Below, in pieces: positions 5,886-34,379 of a stretch of 64,000 bases of DNA (its first letter is position 1; every line of letters begins with the position of its first letter). Location: NCBI RefSeq assembly GCF_000243075.1, contig NC_016745.1, positions 1,629,001 through 1,693,000 of the forward strand, given 5' to 3'. The notes beneath the pieces are model-generated. The model searched no databases. It saw only the letters and a list, made by a program, of their open reading frames with translations, and was not told where the DNA came from. Source of the DNA: Oceanimonas sp. GK1. Lineage in GTDB: Bacteria; Pseudomonadota; Gammaproteobacteria; Enterobacterales; Aeromonadaceae. A program made the translations under genes and the position numbers.

Positions 5886-6890
5886 TCAAATGACCAGCGG
5901 TGCGCTGCTTTCCCGCACCACCAGGGCCGGCTCCAGGGGCAACAGGCGGCGAGGGGCGTGGGGTTCCCGAATACGGGCCAGCAGGGTATCCACCGCCAGT
6001 GCCCCCAGCACCGCCTTGGGCTGCTCTATGCTGGTTAGCCGCGGCACCAGGTAGCGGGCCAGCTCGATGTTGTCGTAGCCCACCACCGACATCTGCTCGG
6101 GCACTTTCACCCCCGTATCGGCCAGCGCCCGCAGGGCACCGGCCGCCATCATGTCGTTGCAGGCAAACACCGCCGTGGGGCGTTCGGGCTGGGTCAGCAG
6201 GTGCGCCATGGCTGCCTTGCCGCCGGCCAGCTCAAAGCCACCCTCCAATATCCATTCCTCCCGCACCGCCAGGCCGGCGGCGGCCATGGAGGTCCTGAAG
6301 CCGGCCAGTCGTTCATCGCTGGCGCGCTGCCCGGCGGGACCGGTGATGCAGCCGATATGGCGATGACCCAGGCTTATCAGATGCTCGGTGGCCAGCCGGC
6401 CGCCCTGCTGGCCCGAGTCCTTGATGAGATCTGCCTTCAAGCCCATGGGGCCCCAGTCCGCCAGCACCAGGGGCAGGCTGGCATGACGGTCAAAGGCGCC
6501 ATCATTAAGGTTGGCCTGGGTACACATCACGATAATGCCGTCCACCCGCTTTTGCTGCAGCATGTCGAGGCTGGCGCCGAGCCGCGCCCGGTCACCGCCG
6601 GTATTGCACAGCACCAGGCTGTAGCCCAGCTCGTAGCAACGCTGCTCCACCCCCTGCACCACCTCGGCAAAAAACGGGTTGGTGCTGGAGGTCACCAGCA
6701 TCCCCAGGGTGCGGGTCTGATTGACCTTGAGGCTGCGGGCCAGCGCCGAGGGGGTGTAGTGCAGCTGGTCGATGGCCTGCTGCACCCTTGCGGTGATCTC
6801 CGGGCTGACAAAGCGGGTCTTGTTGAGCACATGGCTGACGGTGGAAGTGGAAACCCCGGCCATTCTTGCCACGTCCTTGATGGTGGCCAT
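5886..6890 (-). CDS. rbsR: Ribose operon repressor RbsR (LacI family)
   Basis: Represses the rbs operon; ribose relieves repression. The 334-residue protein has an N-terminal LacI helix-turn-helix (MATIKDVARMAGVSTSTVSH), a hinge helix (SALARSLK) and a periplasmic-binding-protein-like core with TNPFFAEVVQGVE, KRVDGIIVMC and FACNDMMAAGALRAL. It closely follows E. coli RbsR throughout. The rbsK stop and rbsR start share one base (TAATG), so the repressor is the last gene of its own operon and is translationally coupled to the kinase. A candidate operator lies upstream of rbsD. Confidence 0.95.
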   Translation of the reverse strand: MATIKDVARMAGVSTSTVSHVLNKTRFVSPEITARVQQAIDQLHYTPSALARSLKVNQTRTLGMLVTSSTNPFFAEVVQGVEQRCYELGYSLVLCNTGGDRARLGASLDMLQQKRVDGIIVMCTQANLNDGAFDRHASLPLVLADWGPMGLKADLIKDSGQQGGRLATEHLISLGHRHIGCITGPAGQRASDERLAGFRTSMAAAGLAVREEWILEGGFELAGGKAAMAHLLTQPERPTAVFACNDMMAAGALRALADTGVKVPEQMSVVGYDNIELARYLVPRLTSIEQPKAVLGALAVDTLLARIREPHAPRRLLPLEPALVVRESSAPLVI

Positions 6891-7801
6891 TAATCTTGCT
6901 CCAGCAGGGCCTCGATGTCGGCCCTGTAGGGCACCGAGGTCTGGGCGCCGGGGCGGGTCACGGAAATGGCCGCCGCGGCCTGAGCGAAGCGTACCGCCGG
7001 CTCCAGCGCCAGGCCCTGCTGCAGGGCGGCAACCAGGGCGCCGTTAAAGGTGTCTCCTGCCGCCGTGGTGTCCACTGCCTGCACCGCAAAGCCGGGCATG
7101 CGCCGGCCCCGGCCGGCCTCGCTCAGCCACACGCCCCGGGCGCCGAGGGTGATGATCACGGTGGCAATGCCCCGCGCATGCAGCGCCTGAGCGGCGGCCG
7201 CGGCCCCGGCGTCGTCGTTGACCGCGATGCCGGTGAGCCGCTCGGCTTCGGTCTCGTTGGGGGTGATGACATCCACCAGCGTCAGCAGCTCGTCGGGCAG
7301 GGCCTGGGCGGGGGCGGGGTTGAGCACCACGTTGGCTCCCTGAGCGCGGGCGAGGCGGGCGGCGGCCAGGTTGGTTTCCAGGGGGATTTCCAGCTGCAAC
7401 AGCAGCTGATCGCAAAACAGGGCGCTGGCATGGCGCTCCAGCCGTTCTGGCGTCAGGGCGGCGTTGGCGCCGGCGGCCAGGGCGATGGTGTTTTCGCCGG
7501 CGTCGTTGACCTGGATCAGCGCCACCCCGGTGTTGACCCCGGGCACGGTGTCGATGGCGTTGATGTTAATGCCGTCGGCGGCGAAACCGGCCAGCAGATC
7601 GCCGGCCATGGGATCTTCACCCACGCAGGCCACCAGCCGGGTGGCGGCGCCGGCCCGGGCGGCGGCCACCGCCTGATTGGCGCCCTTGCCTCCGGGCACG
7701 ATGCGGTAGTCATGGCCGGTGAGGGTTTCGCCGGGGCGGGGAAACTGGGGCAGCCGAATGACGTGATCGATATTGATGCTGCCGGTTACGGTTAAGGTCA
7801 T
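6890..7801 (-). CDS. rbsK: Ribokinase
   Basis: Phosphorylates ribose to ribose 5-phosphate in the cytoplasm, feeding the pentose phosphate pathway. The 303-residue PfkB-family protein shows the N-terminal signature GGKGANQAVAAARAGAAT near residues 37-54 and the C-terminal ATP/anion-hole signature DTTAAGDTFNGALV with the catalytic Asp in AGDTF. The sequence N-I-D-H near the start is the ribose-binding strand. It follows rbsB, with a stable hairpin in between, and overlaps rbsR. Confidence 0.96.
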   Translation of the reverse strand: MTLTVTGSINIDHVIRLPQFPRPGETLTGHDYRIVPGGKGANQAVAAARAGAATRLVACVGEDPMAGDLLAGFAADGININAIDTVPGVNTGVALIQVNDAGENTIALAAGANAALTPERLERHASALFCDQLLLQLEIPLETNLAAARLARAQGANVVLNPAPAQALPDELLTLVDVITPNETEAERLTGIAVNDDAGAAAAAQALHARGIATVIITLGARGVWLSEAGRGRRMPGFAVQAVDTTAAGDTFNGALVAALQQGLALEPAVRFAQAAAAISVTRPGAQTSVPYRADIEALLEQD

Positions 7802-7831
7802 GATGCTTGCTCTAAAATGCCTTGGCTAATA

Positions 7832-7859
7832 GGCCACTCCTGCGAAAGCGGGAGTGGCC
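7832..7859 (-). promoter_or_regulatory. Intercistronic hairpin between rbsB and rbsK
   Basis: Arms 7832-7843 and 7848-7859 form a 12-base-pair stem (one G-T pair) around a 4-base loop, 8 bases after the rbsB stop. No T-rich tail follows in the leftward direction. This placement fits a message-stabilising or partial-termination element that would raise the level of the binding protein over the kinase and repressor. Confidence 0.55.
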
Positions 7860-7866
7860 AGAGAAG

Positions 7867-8748
7867 TTATTTGCTGATCACCTGCAGCGGTACCGGAATA
7901 TGGTCGGCCACGGTCTCGCCGTTCAGCACCCTGACCGCGGTTTCCACCGCGATGGCGCCGATTTCGCCGGGCTGCTGGGCAATGGTGGCCGCCAGCCGGC
8001 CGCCTTGCACCGCCTTGATGCCGTCTTCGGTGCCGTCAAAGCCCACGATCAGCACCTCTTGCTTGTTGGCGGCCTGTAGCGCGCGCAGGGCGCCCAGCGC
8101 CATTTCGTCGTTCTGGGCAAACACCGCCTGCACGTCCGGGTTGCCGGTGAGCAGGTTTTCCATCACGTTCAGGCCCTTGGTACGGTCAAAATCGGCAGGC
8201 TGGCTGGCCATCAGGGTCAGGCCGTGCTCGCTCATCGCCTGGGCAAAACCTTCGCCGCGCTCCCGGGCGGCGCTGGTGCCGGCAATGCCTTCCAGCTGGA
8301 TCACCCTGGCGTCGGCCCCCACCTGTTCGGCGATAAAGTCGCCGGCCATTTTGCCGCCGGCCACGTTGTCGGAGGCGATGTGGGAGACCACCTCGCCCCG
8401 GCTGGCGGCGCGGTCCAGGGTCAGCACCGGCAGATTGGCGCGATTGGCCAGGCGAATGGCATTGGCCACCGCATCGGAGTCGGTGGGGTTGATCAGCAGC
8501 ACCTTGGCGCCCCGCACGCTCAGGTCTTCCACGTTGGCCAGCTCCTTGGCCGGATCGTTCTGGGAGTCGAGCACGATCAGGTTGTAACCGAGCTCGGCGG
8601 CCTTTTGCTCGGCGCCTTCCTTCATGGTCACGAAGAAGGGGTTGTTGAGGGTGGAGATCACCAGCGCCAGGGTATCCTGGGCGTAGGCGCCGGCGGTCAG
8701 GGTGGCGCTGACCAGCGCCGTGGACAGCAGGGTCGTCAGTTTTTTCAT
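7867..8748 (-). CDS. rbsB: Ribose ABC transporter, periplasmic binding protein
   Basis: High-affinity ribose receptor of the periplasm. The 293-residue protein has a signal peptide ([23 protein letters not shown], cleaved before QDTLALV) and the type-1 binding fold: [47 protein letters not shown] and [17 protein letters not shown]. The order and wording of these blocks are those of RbsB. Start chosen at 8748, where the signal peptide begins, rather than the in-frame ATG six codons upstream. It sits in the operon order D-A-C-B-K-R. Confidence 0.95.
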
Positions 8749-8770
8749 GATGATGGTCCTTTTCATTGGG

Positions 8771-9736
8771 TTACTTGTTCTTGTTGTCGACCAGTACCGC
8801 CAGCAGGATCACCGAGGCCTTGGCGATCATCTGGTAATAGGACGACACATCGAGCAGGTTCAGGGCGTTGTTGAGAAAGCCGATAATCAGCGCACCGATC
8901 AGGGTGCCCATAATGGCGCCCCGGCCGCCGGCCAGGCTGGTGCCGCCCAGTACCACGGCGGCGATGGCGTCCAGCTCGTAGCTGGTGCCGGCGGTGGGCT
9001 GAGCCGACGACAGCCGGCTGGTGACGATAATGGCCGCCAGCGCCGACAGCATGCCGCAGATGGCGTAAACGCCCATTTTTACCCGGGCCACGTTGATGCC
9101 CGAGAGCCGGGCCGCCGCCTCGTTGCCGCCCACGGCGTAAATGTAGCGGCCAAAGCGGGTGTGGTTGAGCAGGTACCAGGCGCCGAGAAAGGTCAGTCCC
9201 ATCAGCCACACCGGCACCGGAATGCCGAACACATAGCCGGTGCCGAACCAGGCGAACAGATCGGCGGTATCGGTAAAACCGGTGGAAATGGGCCGGCCGT
9301 CGGTATACACCATGGTCACGCCCCGCAGCAGGGTCATGGTCACCAGGGTGGCGATAAAGGCCTGCACCCGGCCCTTGGCCACGATCACCCCGCTGACCCC
9401 GCCAAGGGCAAAGCCTGCCAGCAGCACCGCCGGCAGGGTGATGAAAATGGACAGCTCCATCGACACCATGCTGGCGGCAAAGGCGCCGCACAGGGCCAGC
9501 ACCGAGCCCACGCTCAAATCGATGCCGGCGGTGAGGATCACCAGGGTCATGCCCACGGCGATAATGGCGTTGACCGAGGTCTGGCGCAAAATGTTGAGCA
9601 GGTTGTCGACGGTAAAGAAGTTGGGGTTGAGCACAGAGACCACCGCAATCAGCAGGAACAGGGCGATCAGCGATTTCTGGGCGATCAGCCATTCCTTGCT
9701 GAACCAGCGACGGCCGGAGTTGAGTGCGGTGTTCAT
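8771..9736 (-). CDS. rbsC: Ribose ABC transporter, permease
   Basis: Inner-membrane channel subunit of the ribose importer. The 321-residue protein has about ten hydrophobic helices and the family motifs [25 protein letters not shown] (residues about 54-78), the EAA-like loop [12 protein letters not shown] near residue 210, and [19 protein letters not shown] near the end. The start overlaps the rbsA stop by four bases (ATGA), which indicates coupled translation. Confidence 0.95.
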
Positions 9737-11235
9737 GCCATTTCCTCTTGTTGCGCCTGGCTCACGGCGGCGGCCAGCAGTTGTTCCTGAGTGGCCTCGG
9801 CGGCCTCGAATTCACCGGTAATGCGCCCTTCGTGCATTACCATGATGCGATCACTGATGCCCAATACTTCCGGCATGTCGGAGGACAGCAGCAATATGGC
9901 CATGCCCTGTTGCTTGAAGCGGTTGATCAGCTGATAGATTTCTTTTTTGGCGCCCACGTCCACGCCCCGGGTGGGCTCGTCCAGGATCAGCACTTTGGGC
10001 TGGGTCATCAGTCCTTTGGCGATGGCCACCTTTTGCTGATTACCGCCGGAGAGGTTGCCGATAAGCTGCTCGCGCCCGGGGGTCTTGATGTTGAACAGCC
10101 GAATGAATTCGTCCACCGCGTGGCGTTCGGCGCCGTGATCGAGCTGGGGCCCCTTGCTGAACTCGGCCAGCGCCGACAGGCTCATGTTGGCCAGCACCGA
10201 CAGCCCCAGCACCAGGCCGTCGCCCTTGCGGTCTTCGGAGATGTAGGCGATGCCCGCCTCCAGCCCCTGGTGGGGGGTCGTGGCGTGGTAGGGCTGGCCC
10301 GCCAGGGTGACGGTGCCGCCGTTACGGGGCAGGGCGCCATAGAGAATGCGCGCCAGCTCGGTGCGACCGGCGCCCATCAGCCCGGAGAAGCCGAGAATTT
10401 CGCCTTCCTTCAGGGTAAAGCTGACGTGCTTGACGCCGGGGCCGGAAAGTCCTTCTACCCGCAGCACTTCCTTGCCAGCGGGCACGGCCAGGCGCGGATA
10501 CTGCTCATCCAGCCGGCGGCCCACCATCATTTCAATCAGCCGATCCTCGTCGATGTCGGCCACCGCTTGCTCGCCAATCCACTTGCCGTCGCGCAGCACG
10601 GTAATGCGATCGCAGATTTCGAAAATCTCCGCCAGCCGGTGGGAGATATAGACGATGCCGCAGCCGGACTGGCGCAGCTCTTCTATCACCCGGAACAGGG
10701 CCCGGGTTTCGGTGTCGGTCAGGGCATCGGTGGGCTCGTCCATGATGATGACATCGGCGTTGAACGACAGCGCCTTGGCGATTTCCACCATTTGCTGAGC
10801 GCCAATGCTCAAATCGCCCACTCGGGTTTTGGGAGAGTGCCTGATCTGCAACCGGTCCAGCAGGCCCTGCGCACCGGCATAGAGCCGGCGCCAGTCGATG
10901 TTGCCGAAGGCGCCGATCGGCTCCCGTCCGAGAAAGATGTTTTCCGCGATGGTCAGCTCCGGCAGCAGGTTCAGCTCCTGATGAATAATGCCGATGCCGG
11001 CCTGCTGCGACTCGCGCGGGCCTTTAAAACGGCGAGCTTCCCCCCGGTAGCAAATGGTGCCGGCATCGGCCTGGTAAATGCCGGTAAGCACCTTCATCAG
11101 GGTGGATTTGCCGGCGCCGTTTTCACCCATCAGGGCCATTACCTGGCCCGAATAGACATTGAGGCCGGCCTGATCCAGCGCCTTGACGCCGGGAAAGGCC
11201 TTGTCGATGCCGGAAAGAGACAATATCGGGTTCAT
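9733..11235 (-). CDS. rbsA: Ribose ABC transporter, tandem ATPase
   Basis: Energises ribose import. The 500-residue protein carries two ABC domains. The first has Walker [10 protein letters not shown], signature [15 protein letters not shown] and Walker [12 protein letters not shown]. The second has a degenerate Walker A (GLMGAGRTE) but an intact signature [16 protein letters not shown] and Walker [10 protein letters not shown]. One degenerate site is normal in sugar-importer ATPases of this family. The start at 11235 (after TGAGGAAAACC) matches the family; a longer frame to 11292 runs into rbsD and is not needed. It is 8 bases from the rbsD stop. Confidence 0.95.
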
Positions 11236-11243
11236 GGTTTTCC

Positions 11244-11663
11244 TCAGAAGGGCACGCCGGCGCACAGAATAAGATTGGCGTAGGGCGTGCATTCACCGGT
11301 GCGGATCACGGCCCGGCTGTGGCCGTTGCGGCCCTTGAACTCGGCATGGCTGAGATAACGGACGGCAATGTCGCGTCCCTGATCATGGGCGGCTTCGGCC
11401 ATTTGCGCCAGCAGGCGCCGGTGCAGCTCGGGGCTCGCCGTTTTGATTTCTTCCGCCAGTACTACCGCCTCCAGCTGCAGCTCGGTGAGCAGGGCGGCAA
11501 GGGTGTCTTCAAGGCCCGGCAGGCCTGGGCTCACCGCCAGATCGATACGTTCCACTCCCGGGGGCACCGGCAGGCCGGCATCCCCCAGGGTGATTTCGTC
11601 GGTATGGCCCAGGCTTGCCACCAGGGCGGAGAGGTGGCTGTTCAGCAGAGTGGTTTTTTTCAC
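11244..11663 (-). CDS. rbsD: D-ribose pyranase
   Basis: Interconverts the pyranose and furanose forms of ribose so that ribokinase gets its substrate. The 139-residue protein shows [24 protein letters not shown] with the catalytic His in [16 protein letters not shown], and the C-terminal [26 protein letters not shown]. It is the first gene of the rbs operon and has a LacI-type palindrome about 57 bases upstream. Confidence 0.96.
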
Positions 11664-30070: not shown

Positions 30071-30757
30071 TCAGGGCACCACCAGCCGGTAGCCGATGCC
30101 CGGCTCGGTGAGCAGAATGCGGGGATGGGCCGGCTGGGCTTCCAGCTTCTGGCGCAGCTGGGACATGTGTACCCGCACGTATTCGTGGTGCTCCACATGG
30201 GCCGGCCCCCAGACCGCGCTCAGGATCTGGCGGTGGGTCACCACCTTTTCCGCGTGGCGCAGCAAAAACAGCAGCAGCTTGTATTCGGTGGGGGTCAGGT
30301 GCAGCGGCTCGCCCCCCTTGCACACCCGCCGCGCTGCCGGATCCACGGTAATTTCTCCCAGTTGCAGGGGCAGCTCGGCGTCCCGCCCCGGGCGGCGCAG
30401 CGCCACCCGGATCCGCGCCAGCAACTCCTGAGCGCCGAACGGCTTGGTCAGGTAGTCGTCGGCACCGGCGTCCAGCGCCTCCACCTTTTCCGCTTCCCGT
30501 TCCCGGGCCGAGATCACGATCACCGGCATGGCGGACCAGGATCTCAGCTCCCGCAGTAACGCCACTCCGTCCATGTCACCCAGGCCCAGATCGAGCAGCA
30601 CCAAATCCGGTGTGCGGCCACTCAGGCAGCGTAATCCCTCGGCACCGCCGGCCGCTGCCGTGACCCCATAGCCGTGGCTGCGCAGCAGGGTCTGCAGGAA
30701 ACGGGTCATGGAGGCATCGTCTTCGATGATCAGAATATGAGGGAGCGGTGCTGTCAT
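30071..30757 (-). CDS. kdpE: KdpE-like response regulator
   Basis: OmpR-family regulator (228 residues) closely resembling KdpE: acidic pair EDD, phosphoacceptor in LVLLDLGLGDMDG, VIVISARE, DDYLTKPF with the conserved Lys, and a winged-helix output domain (HLTPTEYKLLLFLLRHAEKVVTHRQIL, GIGYRLVVP). In E. coli KdpE activates the kdpFABC potassium pump. No kdpFABC is present here; instead it closes an operon headed by ktrA and ktrB. The start overlaps the kinase stop by four bases. Confidence 0.9.
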   Translation of the reverse strand: MTAPLPHILIIEDDASMTRFLQTLLRSHGYGVTAAAGGAEGLRCLSGRTPDLVLLDLGLGDMDGVALLRELRSWSAMPVIVISAREREAEKVEALDAGADDYLTKPFGAQELLARIRVALRRPGRDAELPLQLGEITVDPAARRVCKGGEPLHLTPTEYKLLLFLLRHAEKVVTHRQILSAVWGPAHVEHHEYVRVHMSQLRQKLEAQPAHPRILLTEPGIGYRLVVP

Positions 30758-32061
30758 GGCTGCGTTCTCCAGGCGGGCCAGACCAGATGGCTGACGGCCA
30801 CCCGGCCGTCGTCACCCTCGGTCAGATAAAAGGAACCCTGGTGCCAGTCGGCCACCGCCCGGCAGATGGGCAGGCCCAGGCCGGCGCCGCCATCACCCCT
30901 GGGCTGGGCCGGCCGGACCGGCTTGCCGTTGGTCAGGATGAAATCGTAAAGCTCGCCGTGCCAGCGTCCTTCCAGCCGGTAAGGAGGCAGGCCGTGGCGC
31001 ACCGCGTTTTCCAGCATGTTGGCCAGGGCGATCTCCAGCAGGGTATCGTCGCCATGGATGGGCACCTTGTTGTCGATATCAATGTCGAAATGCACGGTGT
31101 CGAACAGGTTGCCGCGCCGGCGCAGGGCGGCGCTGACCACTTCTTCCGGCATCAGCGCCTGCGCAACAACTGCATCCTGGCGCTGCACCCGGTTGAGCTC
31201 CATCACCTTGTCGAAGTGACTGCTGAGCACCCGGCTCTGCTGGTAGATGGCTTCGGCAATTTCCCGGTATTCCTGCTCCTCAAGGCGTACCTGGGGGTCT
31301 GCCAGCATGCTGGCGTTGCCCATGATGCTGGCCAGCGGAGTGCGCAGATCGTGGGACAGGGAGCGCAGCAGGGCGTTGCGGCCGCTGGCCAGCTCTGCTT
31401 CCAGCCGTGCCTGCTGCTCGGCACCGGCCAGCCGGGCCCGGGTCAGGGCCTGGCCCAGCAGCGAGGCCGCCACCCGCAGCAGGGTGCGGTTGGCTCGGTA
31501 AGGACCGCTGGCACAGCACAGGTAGGAGACCACCTGCTGCTTGTCGAACACCGGCAACGCCTCGCCTGCTGCCGGCGGCTTGAGGGCAATGCTGACCGGG
31601 CTCCCCAGCCGGCGGGTCAGCAACTGGGTCACGAACGCGTACATGGCCTCGGGCCGGCCGTGCCCGGGCAGGCCCCGGGCCAGCAGAAACATGCCCCTGA
31701 GCTGGCGCAGCAACTGACGTACCCGCTCCAGCCGGCCGCGTAACTGGCCGCTGAGCCGGCTGATCAGCAGGCCCACCGCCAGCATCACGGCGAAGGTAAG
31801 CAGGTAGTCCAGGTTGTGCACATGCAGGGTGTAGTAGGGCTCGACGAAGAGCACATCGAACAGCAACACGCTCAGCACCGTGGCCAGGCTGGCGCGGCGG
31901 CTGCCCTGGCGCACCGCTATGATTGCCACCACCAGCAGCAGCGCCATGGCGATGTCGGTGGTGGTAAGCCAGCCCCGCAGTGGCAGCAGCAGCACCACTG
32001 CCAGCAGAGGGCCGCCCAGGCTCGGCAGCCAGGGTGGCAGACGTGGATTATCCCAGAGCAA
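30754..32061 (-). CDS. Short KdpD-like sensor histidine kinase lacking the cytoplasmic N-terminal domains
   Basis: Inner-membrane kinase of 435 residues, about half of full KdpD. It has only the DUF4118 membrane block (helices about 18-100, with DVLFVEPYYTLHV), a GAF-like linker and the kinase core: His237 in LSHDLRTPLASIMG, the N-box LLEIALANMLENAVRHG and GGAGLGLPICRAV. The KdpD N-terminal Walker domain and the universal-stress-protein domain are absent; the frame begins inside ktrB, so they were never part of this gene. Overlaps: 14 bases with ktrB, 4 with kdpE. Which signal it senses is unknown; K+ or osmotic status is the contextual guess. Confidence 0.88.
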   Translation of the reverse strand: MLWDNPRLPPWLPSLGGPLLAVVLLLPLRGWLTTTDIAMALLLVVAIIAVRQGSRRASLATVLSVLLFDVLFVEPYYTLHVHNLDYLLTFAVMLAVGLLISRLSGQLRGRLERVRQLLRQLRGMFLLARGLPGHGRPEAMYAFVTQLLTRRLGSPVSIALKPPAAGEALPVFDKQQVVSYLCCASGPYRANRTLLRVAASLLGQALTRARLAGAEQQARLEAELASGRNALLRSLSHDLRTPLASIMGNASMLADPQVRLEEQEYREIAEAIYQQSRVLSSHFDKVMELNRVQRQDAVVAQALMPEEVVSAALRRRGNLFDTVHFDIDIDNKVPIHGDDTLLEIALANMLENAVRHGLPPYRLEGRWHGELYDFILTNGKPVRPAQPRGDGGAGLGLPICRAVADWHQGSFYLTEGDDGRVAVSHLVWPAWRTQP

Positions 32062-33370
32062 TACGGCCTCCCGCGTAGCGCAGCGGACGCTCCGGGTTGC
32101 CCGCCAGGGCGGTAAACAGATACACCGGGCTCAGCTTGCCAATCATCATGACCGCCATGATGAGCACTTTGCCTCCCGGACTCAACTCCCCGGTCATGCC
32201 CGTCGACAGCCCCACCGTGCCCAATGCCGAGATCAGCTCGAAGATCATCGAGAAGGGATCCGCCCCGGGCATCAGGTAGAAGGCCAGCAGGGTCACCAGC
32301 AGCAGCAGGCTCAGGGTGATCACCAGAATGCCGGCGGCCCGCAGCATGTACTCCACCCCCAGCATGCGCCCCAGCATGCGGGTTTCGGTGCGGCCCTGCA
32401 GGGCCGCCACCACCCCGGTGATCAGCAACACAAAGGTGGTAACACGTATGCCGCCGGCGGTGGAGCCGGGGCCGGCGCCGATCACCATGTTGAGCATCAG
32501 CCAGGTCTGGCCCGCCGGGCTCATGGCGGCAATGTCCAGGCTGTTGAAGCCGGCGGTGCGGGCGGAGGCATTCTGAAAGAAGGCGTGCAGCAGGCGTTCC
32601 TGCCAGCCCAGCCCGGCCAGGCTGTGGTTGTGTTCGAACAGCAGCAACAGCAGGGTGCCCACCGCCAGCAGGGTCAGGGTAGCCCACAGCACCAGCCGGG
32701 TATGGACGCTGCGGCAGCGGCGCAGCACCAGCAGCTCGAACAGCACCGCAAAGCCCAGGCCGCCGACGATAAAGCCCGCCGCGTGGGCCAGCACCATCCA
32801 GCCCGGCGCCACCGACATCAGCGAGTCACCGAACAGAGCGAAACCGGCGTTGTTGAAGGCCGACACCGCATGAAACAGGCTGGTGCCCAGGCCCTGTGGC
32901 CAGCCCAGCAGCGGCACCCAGTGCAGGGCGAACAGCACCGTCAGTACCGATTCCACCCCCAGGCTGAACAGCAGGGAGAAACGGAGCACATCCGGCAGCC
33001 GCAGATCCGGCCCCAGCTGCCAGAAGGAGCTGAGCATGGCCTGGTTGCGCAGGCCCACGCTGGCGTTGAACGACAGCATGGCCGCTGCCCCCAGGGTCAT
33101 GTAGCCCAGGCCGCCGAGCTGGATCAGCAGGCCGATGATGGTCTGGCCCAGGGCCGAATAGTCGCTGCCGGTATCCACCACCACCAGGCCGGTGACGGTA
33201 ACCGCCGATACCGAGGTAAACAGGGTGTCGAGCCAGCTCACCGGGTTAATTCGGGCTGCGGGCAACAACAGCAACAGGCTGCCGGCCAAGGCCAGCGCCA
33301 GGTAGCCCTGCAACAGCAGCAGTGCCGGCGAACTCAGCCGTTTGTGGGTCAGGACAAGGCGCGCAGACAT
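32048..33370 (-). CDS. ktrB: KtrB/TrkH-type potassium translocating subunit
   Basis: Inner-membrane K+ channel-like subunit of the SKT superfamily (440 residues). Four pore-loop repeats can be placed: SVSAVTVTGLVVVDTG, AFNNAGFALFG, ASARTAGFNSLDIA and LGTVGLSTGMTGEL. Each carries a Gly at the selectivity site. The shorter length and lack of extra N-terminal helices favour KtrB over TrkH. The ktrA frame overlaps by 22 bases upstream. Confidence 0.9.
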   Translation of the reverse strand: MSARLVLTHKRLSSPALLLLQGYLALALAGSLLLLLPAARINPVSWLDTLFTSVSAVTVTGLVVVDTGSDYSALGQTIIGLLIQLGGLGYMTLGAAAMLSFNASVGLRNQAMLSSFWQLGPDLRLPDVLRFSLLFSLGVESVLTVLFALHWVPLLGWPQGLGTSLFHAVSAFNNAGFALFGDSLMSVAPGWMVLAHAAGFIVGGLGFAVLFELLVLRRCRSVHTRLVLWATLTLLAVGTLLLLLFEHNHSLAGLGWQERLLHAFFQNASARTAGFNSLDIAAMSPAGQTWLMLNMVIGAGPGSTAGGIRVTTFVLLITGVVAALQGRTETRMLGRMLGVEYMLRAAGILVITLSLLLLVTLLAFYLMPGADPFSMIFELISALGTVGLSTGMTGELSPGGKVLIMAVMMIGKLSPVYLFTALAGNPERPLRYAGGRIALG

Positions 33371-34005
33371 GCTTCCAGTGACTCCGTTTCGGCCAGCAGC
33401 AGCAGCTTGTCACCCGGTTGCAGGCGGGCACTCTGGATCATCTGCTCGGGCTGGTAATCCTTGTAGCGGGTCATGCCCAGCAGCTGGACATGGTGACGGC
33501 CGAGCAGGCCCACCAGGTTGCGCTCAAGGTGACTGGCATTGACTTCCAGCTCCGCCACCACCTGGCCGGTGGACAACCCCTGGCGGGTCAGCAGTTCGGG
33601 ATGGCCCAGCCAGGCCGCCACCATCTCGCCCATGGCCTGCTCCGGGTTAATGGCCCGGCTCACGCCCATCTTCTGTGCCAGCTTGTGGTGATAACTGTCG
33701 CGAGTTTTGCACCAGATTGCCTCGACCCCGGCCTCCTTCAGGTTGAGGATGGTGATCAGACTGCTCTGCAGATCGGTGCCGATGGCCACCACCACCGCGA
33801 AAAATTGTCGCCAGTCGATGCTAGCGATCACCTTGGGATCGGTGCCGTCGGCGATAATGGCCTCGGCCACATCATCGGCGATGGCATGCACCCGCTCCTG
33901 AGCCGAGTCTATTGCCATTACCTCCAGACCGGCGCCCCGCGCCGCCCGGCAGAAGGCGGAGCCGAAGCGGCCCAGGCCGATCACCGCAATACGTTTTTTT
34001 GCCAT
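33349..34005 (-). CDS. ktrA: KtrA/TrkA-type regulatory subunit (RCK protein)
   Basis: Cytoplasmic octameric ring that gates KtrB in response to nucleotides. The 218-residue protein has one RCK-N Rossmann domain (IAVIGLGRFGSAFCR, then AIDSAQERV, and Asp for ribose binding) and one RCK-C domain (residues about 135-218), the single-unit KtrA layout. The start at 34005 follows ACGGAGAC. First gene of the four-gene operon; promoter in the 374-base gap shared with creatinase. Confidence 0.92.
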   Translation of the reverse strand: MAKKRIAVIGLGRFGSAFCRAARGAGLEVMAIDSAQERVHAIADDVAEAIIADGTDPKVIASIDWRQFFAVVVAIGTDLQSSLITILNLKEAGVEAIWCKTRDSYHHKLAQKMGVSRAINPEQAMGEMVAAWLGHPELLTRQGLSTGQVVAELEVNASHLERNLVGLLGRHHVQLLGMTRYKDYQPEQMIQSARLQPGDKLLLLAETESLEACLRALS

Positions 34006-34379
34006 GGTTGAAGTCTCCGTAAGCCATGACTCAAGCCTACGCCGGCTCCTGTAAAAAGGCTGTTTAGAGTGCGGAAACGGATATAAAGAAAACATAAAGA
34101 AAGGGCAGGGCGCCAACAGAAAGGTTTCAAAAGAAACCAACATGCCGGTTCAAACCGGGCCAAGTGGTTAGATAAATGTGAATAGTGACGGTTTTTTGTC
34201 ACTAAGTGGTGGTTTTTTGGTTGTTTTTTAACAAGGTATTAACGAAGCTAATGTGTCGATTTGAAGTATTCATTTCTGTTATGGACGGCCAGCCTCTAGC
34301 ATCAGGGACATGCGCTAATCAGCCATTCATGGGGCGCAGTTAACCACCCTGTTACCAGCTAGAAGGAAGGAGCCTTACC
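34006..34379. other. Divergent intergenic region between ktrA and creatinase
   Basis: No gene seen. It contains three closely spaced inverted repeats: GGTTTC-AAAA-GAAACC (34123-34138), CCGGTT-CA-AACCGG (34145-34158) and TAGTGAC-N8-GTCACTA (34183-34204). T6 runs follow (34191-34230). It must hold the promoters for both the ktr operon and creatinase. The creatinase ribosome site is AAGGAAGGAG at about 34361-34370. Confidence 0.6.

Follow-up and report, generated by a model that had tools for sequence, protein, structure and literature searches.

The cassette and its genes

The stretch of DNA analysed here is a 64-kb window (64,000 nucleotides) of the 3.53 Mb, 99.99% complete genome of Oceanimonas sp. 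GK1 (G000), and its subject is a cassette of four minus-strand genes that joins a K+ importer to a two-component system resembling KdpD/KdpE. The first gene, ktrA (33349..34005), starts with ATG and specifies a single-RCK regulatory subunit of 218 residues that matches Pfam TrkA_N. It is followed by ktrB (32048..33370; ATG start), specifying a K+ translocating subunit of 440 residues with a TrkH Pfam match of 160.6 bits; by the gene of a minimal KdpD-like histidine kinase (30754..32061), which begins with TTG after GGAGG and specifies 435 residues with DUF4118, HisKA and a weak HATPase_c match; and by the gene of a KdpE-like response regulator of the OmpR/PhoB type (30071..30757; ATG start; 228 residues with Response_reg and Trans_reg_C Pfam matches). 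A first-pass annotation of this DNA had reported successive overlaps of 22, 14 and 4 bases between these genes. That is borne out, and the overlap lengths and start codons, including the TTG of the kinase, are identical in six of six loci, those of the window, Oceanimonas smirnovii, O. baumannii and three Zobellella species. Read from these overlaps, co-translation of the four genes is plausible. The named organisms nearest at the locus are O. smirnovii (97% kinase identity), Zobellella and O. baumannii.

The best solved relative of KtrA is the KtrA chain of PDB 5but (1.6e-59), and the best solved relatives of KtrB are KtrB chains (7e-84), with no TrkH chain among its 11 matches; the KtrA and KtrB chains of 5but and 4j7c are those of Bacillus subtilis. 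KtrB scores under the TIGR00933 cut-off (280.2 vs 331.15 bits), and has four P-loop glycines, G61, G176, G274 and G387. Judged by these likenesses, ktrA and ktrB are predicted to encode a KtrAB-type K+ importer.

When 84,980 species genomes were scanned with two exact peptide patterns, which can miss diverged members, 42 further loci (designated by L numbers) emerged; these are related to one another, not independent. Within the genus, the kinase is present in six of 23 genomes.

KdpE-type boxes upstream of ktrA

Upstream of ktrA lies a sequence, TTTATG-TTTTC-TTTATA (34082..34098, minus strand), that matches the KdpE-type pattern TTTAYR-N5-TTTAYR at 12 of 12 positions and is the sole strict match inside the window. 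In E. coli, the site mapped at kdpF reads TTTATA-CTTTT-TTTACA; in gel shifts, KdpE is reported to require the TTTA cores of the two half-sites, TTTATA and TTTACA, which are separated by a 5-bp spacer (PMC3264566). When the six ktrA upstream regions were aligned, they proved otherwise dissimilar and converged at the direct repeat TCTTTAxxxTTTCTTTAT. Each of the six genus genomes with the kinase contains the pattern once; the other 17 lack it, and its reversed control occurs in none of the 23.

Scoring by offset against E. coli kdpF revealed a second, degenerate box, TAAACA-GCCTT-TTTACA (34050..34066, minus strand), 32 bp downstream of the first. Besides the window and E. coli, the offset profile covered 39 of the 42 loci (all save L126, L127 and L130). 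At +32 the mean box score is 9.33 of 12 in the six ktrA (class A) promoters; the 14 trkH-kinase promoters average 10.57 and the 11 Pseudoalteromonas promoters 12, compared with a background of 4.3–4.6 over all offsets. For six further Pseudoalteromonas loci the downstream box served as the anchor, and here the partner at −32 averages 9.67 and is lacking in L102. The E. coli kdpF promoter itself (L141:8405 region) has a degenerate second box, TTTGCG-AAATC-TTTGCA, which scores 10 and stands at the same +32 offset from the mapped site. The sequence TAGGCT (34034..34039, minus strand) lies at an offset of 59–64 from the first box, the same as that of TACCCT in the E. coli kdpF region, and by this position both may be −10 elements.

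When the double-box pattern was searched in the whole GK1 genome with up to three mismatches, the one match was that at ktrA, and the control gave none. It therefore seems probable, from the boxes and from the residues described below, that the KdpE-like regulator recognizes the box pair upstream of ktrA.

A KdpE-like regulator in a genome without KdpA

The best NCBIfam match of the regulator is the KdpE equivalog NF007820, and its best PDB match is E. coli KdpE (4kny, 3.1e-70). The phospho-accepting aspartate and the DNA-contact residues, Asp52, Arg193, Arg200 and Thr215 in E. coli numbering, are kept in all 43 linked regulators, that of the window included. In a tree the regulators form one clade of 42 rows (L130 excluded) with support of 100/99, apart from 11 others and from L130; its deeper joins are unsure owing to long branches.

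The first-pass annotation had noted the absence of kdpFABC at the locus, and had held that its discovery elsewhere in the genome, as the true target of the regulator and with no effect on the ktrA promoter, would speak against control of Ktr. As far as KdpA goes, this search came out negative: PF03814 has no match in the whole GK1 genome, in which KdpF, KdpB and KdpC were not searched for, and none above the cut-off in any of the 23 genus genomes, two of which (G054 and G046) give weak sub-threshold matches. The N-terminal family of KdpD, PF02702, also has no match in the whole genome, and a full-length KdpD encoded elsewhere as the real partner of the regulator is therefore rejected.

A minimal KdpD with a remodelled ATP site

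The kinase matches DUF4118 with 91.3 bits and HisKA with 48.4 bits, while HATPase_c, at 25.2 bits, falls under its cut-off of 26.4; against the KdpD equivalog NF007793 it reaches 146.2 of 1123 bits and misses the cut-off. The four-helix DUF4118 membrane part spans residues 12–115 (31717..32028, minus strand; helices 11–28, 34–52, 54–72 and 84–133 in the AlphaFold2 model). Because DUF4118 begins at residue 12, the open reading frame has no room for PF02702, in agreement with the earlier claim that the kinase lacks the Walker and USP domains of KdpD. In the AlphaFold2 model (mean predicted local distance difference test score, 79.9; predicted template-modelling score, 0.45), the four membrane helices are followed by a small alpha/beta unit (137–190), a DHp hairpin and a CA domain.

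The annotation had further held that the membrane and catalytic parts of KdpD are kept. This stands for DUF4118, HisKA and the H, N and G2 boxes, but not for the separate G1 box, DxGxG, or for much of the ATP lid, which are gone. The kinase alignment comprises 31 of the 43 sequences (all except L105, L106, L108, L109, L110, L115, L119, L124, L125, L129, L130 and L132), and three residues are invariant in all 31: the phospho-acceptor His237 in SHDLRTPL (31351..31353), Asn378 (30928..30930), which by eye stands where the aspartate of the KdpD G1 box is expected, in a segment without DxGxG, and Asp390 (30892..30894), the first residue of a fused DxGxGLG motif, all on the minus strand. The distance from the N box to G2 is 37–41 residues in the window and in 39 of the 42 loci, vs 54 in E. 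coli KdpD. The kinases of L095 and L122 fit the clade by alignment, L122 through the invariant columns, though their G2 escaped the pattern; that of L130 has DxGxG and a distance of 57 residues. The TrkH-linked kinases L032 and L039 (of loci L086 and L090) retain the G1 DxGxG and a longer lid, so that the loss is a trait of this kinase clade, and we reject a degeneracy common to all TrkH-linked short kinases.

Because the catalytic domain is remodelled, ordinary autokinase activity is not to be assumed. The protein might instead be a phosphatase-dominant or kinase-dead sensor, with another donor phosphorylating KdpE and the minimal KdpD acting only to shut KdpE off under abundant K+; the target operon would be the same. 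The loss of G1 and the shortened stretch between the N box and G2 speak for this, as does the low confidence of the lid (residues 386–393) in the AlphaFold2 model, and the HDLRT motif, the HisKA phosphatase motif, is invariant in the aligned kinases. On the other hand, the N box, the G2 box and Asn378/Asp390 remain invariant at 35–47% identity outside the genus, and therefore the ATP site seems still to be selected. A Foldseek search with the model finds DHp-CA kinases, some of them ATP-bound, although it also finds DivL, a pseudokinase. On balance we regard a phosphatase-led sensor as possible but doubtful.

Shorter kinases, of 348–389 residues, occur in 14 of the 42 loci, in Rheinheimera, Arsukibacterium and two unclassified gammaproteobacterial metagenome-assembled genomes; the Rheinheimera loci L111, L113 and L117, by contrast, have kinases of 439–452 residues. 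The four of the 14 displayed in the alignment (L118, L120, L121 and L126) lack the GAF-like region between membrane and DHp.

Linkage to Ktr and Trk importers

In 41 of the 42 loci the kinase-regulator pair adjoins ktrAB and/or trkH. Three arrangements are found: ktrA-ktrB-kinase-regulator, co-directional, in five loci; trkH-kinase-regulator, co-directional, in 19; and, in 17, a pair that diverges from ktrAB, from trkH or from both. The remaining locus, L130 (Gemmatimonadales, 28% identity), has neither KtrAB nor TrkH beside the pair. There are 56 strict boxes, and 55 of them fall within promoter regions of a transporter, the kinase or kdpA, spread over 40 of the 42 loci, the promoter regions having been defined after the matches were seen and L098, L099 and L101 having overlapping matches on both strands; a first-order Markov model predicts 3.15 strict boxes over the 42 loci (range 1–7, 20 runs). 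Upstream of trkH in L126 and L127 a box with one mismatch was found by eye.

Could the two-component genes adjoin ktrAB by chance, with KdpE acting elsewhere in the genome? The regulon was searched by pattern alone, by which a divergent site would be missed, and this leaves the idea some room. However, the gene overlaps are conserved in all six loci compared, the Ktr or Trk linkage recurs in three arrangements, and the box pattern within the genus is confined to module-bearing genomes. We therefore consider a chance neighbourhood very improbable.

In L126, kdpA/kdpB come after the minimal system; the strict box of this locus precedes kdpA, only the one-mismatch box stands at trkH, and the system may control both. 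Four other loci in Rheinheimera and a related metagenome-assembled genome (L123, L124, L125 and L129) have a full-length KdpD/KdpE with kdpB/kdpC convergent beside the trkH-minimal kinase-regulator operon, and provide a natural pair for testing the insulation of two KdpDE systems. In Pseudoalteromonas ostreae (L115) the trkH near the kinase is only an open frame of 86 residues, and the ktrA and ktrB frames are full length.

A broad distribution in the class is rejected: among 369 sampled genomes, with up to four candidates scored per genome, the minimal type was found in none of the 368 other than GK1, and profile matches at E 1e-40 were confined to GK1 itself and one genome with a frame of 943 residues. 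Of five class-sample loci with short KdpD frames and flanks (L086–L090), L086 and L090 are divergent from TrkH, and L087, L088 and L089 have neither TrkH nor KdpA-C nearby at the threshold used. We therefore also reject TrkH linkage as a general property of short KdpD frames, since it holds for two of five. The more distant short kinases of this sample that occur in G110 and G234 are encoded divergently from TrkH, and the DNA separating the two genes contains 11-of-12 box matches.

Probable exchange of the cassette, and other importers

Between the window and O. smirnovii (L091/L080), synonymous divergence (dS) is 0.012–0.182 for the four cassette genes and 0.39–1.09 for seven flanking genes. 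DNA identity between the two is 94–100% inside the cassette, with 99.7% for ktrA, and 84–85% just outside it on either side. In Zobellella L092 and L094 the cassette occupies other genomic sites, and the homology with them extends from 30069/30070, at the kdpE stop, to 34101, just past the first box. The simplest reading is that the whole regulated unit has recently been exchanged. We rejected a plasmid origin, as a plasmid search returned no record covering 80% of the module.

The cassette KtrB is the sole PF02386 match in the GK1 genome, and Kup (PF02705) was not found in it; none of nine genus genomes searched has Kup. TrkH, in comparison, gives a match at E < 1e-95 in 20 of the 23 genus genomes. 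At the expected site for the canonical trkH, GK1 has 26 codons identical to the N-terminus of O. smirnovii TrkH, followed by a run of N and, past it, 23S rRNA (L075 about 6525–11500; G000:C1 near 377 kb). The remainder of trkH is most likely hidden in this assembly gap, which is why the family searches miss it. Loss of the canonical TrkH, which would leave KtrAB as the only Trk/Ktr importer, is therefore rejected, and the cassette is probably an additional importer of the Trk type. The same assembly also holds a contig of 4245 bases (C3, L077) with an RNAI family match of 57.2 bits, which suggests a small ColE1-like plasmid.

A model for K+-responsive control

We think it likely that the locus is a self-contained, autoregulated K+-uptake cassette, in which the minimal KdpD-like kinase and the KdpE-like regulator act at the box pair of ktrA. 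Judging from the promoter sequence, the phosphorylated regulator would bind the box pair and activate ktrA-ktrB-kinase-kdpE as one operon. The kinase would set the phosphorylation of the regulator by reading K+, as has been proposed for E. coli KdpD (PMC5936718), and by the same analogy a shortage of K+ would raise phospho-KdpE and repletion would lower it. Uptake by KtrAB would then refill the cell, so that a negative feedback loop would enclose a positively autoregulated operon. The first-pass annotation had suggested that a minimal KdpD/KdpE controls Ktr rather than Kdp, and it finds support in the box pair at ktrA, the only match to the pattern in the genome, in the conserved DNA-contact residues, in the lack of KdpA and in the Ktr/Trk linkage across several genera.

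Several observations weigh against this model. The regulator, at 261.5 bits, is under the NF007820 cut-off of 325. A sigma-70 scan recognized no promoter. The second box is weak in class A, and is absent in L102 and in the Rheinheimera loci L111, L113 and L117, the latter three scoring 4.0; strict boxes are missing from L127 and L130, and that of L126 is at kdpA. The double-box search with up to three mismatches gave 64 matches in 20 genomes vs 34 in the reversed control. It recovered the module's own site in 18 of the 20 (not in L111, and in L126 the match is the kdpA site), and of 11 matches with at most one mismatch ten are at modules; the other, a single-mismatch match (G454:C6), is not. 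A single target is therefore well supported for GK1, and likely for the other genomes. Without a recognizable G1 box and much of the lid, the kinase may not autophosphorylate. Finally, internal K+ is reported to act in E. coli on the C-terminal cytoplasmic part of KdpD (PMC5936718), the part that is remodelled in the cassette kinase.

A further alternative is that the pair does control the cassette, but that its signal is salt, turgor or Na+ rather than K+, or that it represses. The hosts are marine and halotolerant. The region between membrane and DHp is shortened, and is missing altogether in the short kinases L118, L120, L121 and L126; TM/GAF is among the places proposed for K+ sensing in E. 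coli KdpD (PMC11018627). Against this, the DUF4118 membrane part is retained, external K+ is described as acting on E. coli KdpD at an externally accessible site (PMC5936718), and the promoter geometry is like that of the kdpF promoter, which KdpE activates. A different signal, or repression, appears rather unlikely to us, and we favour K+-responsive activation.

The absence of the serine-kinase/Usp part is presumably explained by its known substrate, KdpB, being gone too, although KdpB was not searched for genome-wide; the N-terminal domain of KdpD is reported to phosphorylate KdpB at Ser162 (PMC11018627). We put forward, tentatively and as a less probable extension, that an undescribed clade of KdpD-derived sensors, with no serine-kinase arm and with a rebuilt ATP site (G1 Asp changed to Asn, a short lid and a fused DxGxGLG), may form with KdpE the dedicated switch of exchangeable Ktr/Trk cassettes, making importers that are usually thought constitutive responsive to K+ through a lid-poor, possibly phosphatase-driven kinase.

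Comparison with known systems

With B. subtilis KtrAB the cassette shares the subunit pair and the family. Expression of the B. subtilis importer is described as being under a c-di-AMP (cyclic di-AMP) riboswitch (PMC11018627), whereas that of the cassette would be controlled by a two-component system within the operon. Split KdpD chains that consist only of TM/GAF/DHpCA were reported in a survey of 5495 species with a Kdp pump, where they accompany a separate serine-kinase chain (PMC11018627). They resemble the cassette kinase in being KdpD without the N-terminal domain; unlike those species, the genome that carries the cassette gave no match to KdpA or to the N-terminal domain.

In the literature searched, mostly outside subscription papers, we recognized no account of KdpDE controlling Ktr or Trk, the nearest statement concerning Kup in Azotobacter. 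There, a genome paper annotates a KdpDE-like pair as regulating a K+ transporter other than Kdp, in a KdpD1/KdpE1-KupA operon (PMC4465626). The operon differs from the cassette in having Kup rather than Ktr/Trk, and the likeness is one of description. Published accounts present Trk-type importers as constitutive and Kdp as the system that is inducible (PMC3610689, PMC5936718).

The closest parallel is E. coli KdpD/KdpE-kdpFABC, with which the cassette shares the KdpE-type DNA-contact residues, the 6-5-6 box, the degenerate box at +32, the DUF4118 membrane part and HisKA. It differs in that the apparent target is ktrA and not kdpF, in that the kinase has a shortened GAF-like region and neither the serine-kinase/Usp part nor a separate G1 box, and in that its regulator falls in a separate clade. 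The kinases are a natural example of a histidine kinase clade that lacks a separate G1 box and has a short lid, and some members, with little beyond the membrane part and DHp-CA, offer a compact test of the K+-sensing parts of KdpD. The clade suggests that KdpDE became detached from the pump and joined to Ktr/Trk channels in several gammaproteobacterial genera, and that during this move the DNA site was kept while the domain known to phosphorylate the pump was dropped. A KdpE-type control circuit of a K+ pump thereby appears to have been rewired onto a different kind of importer.

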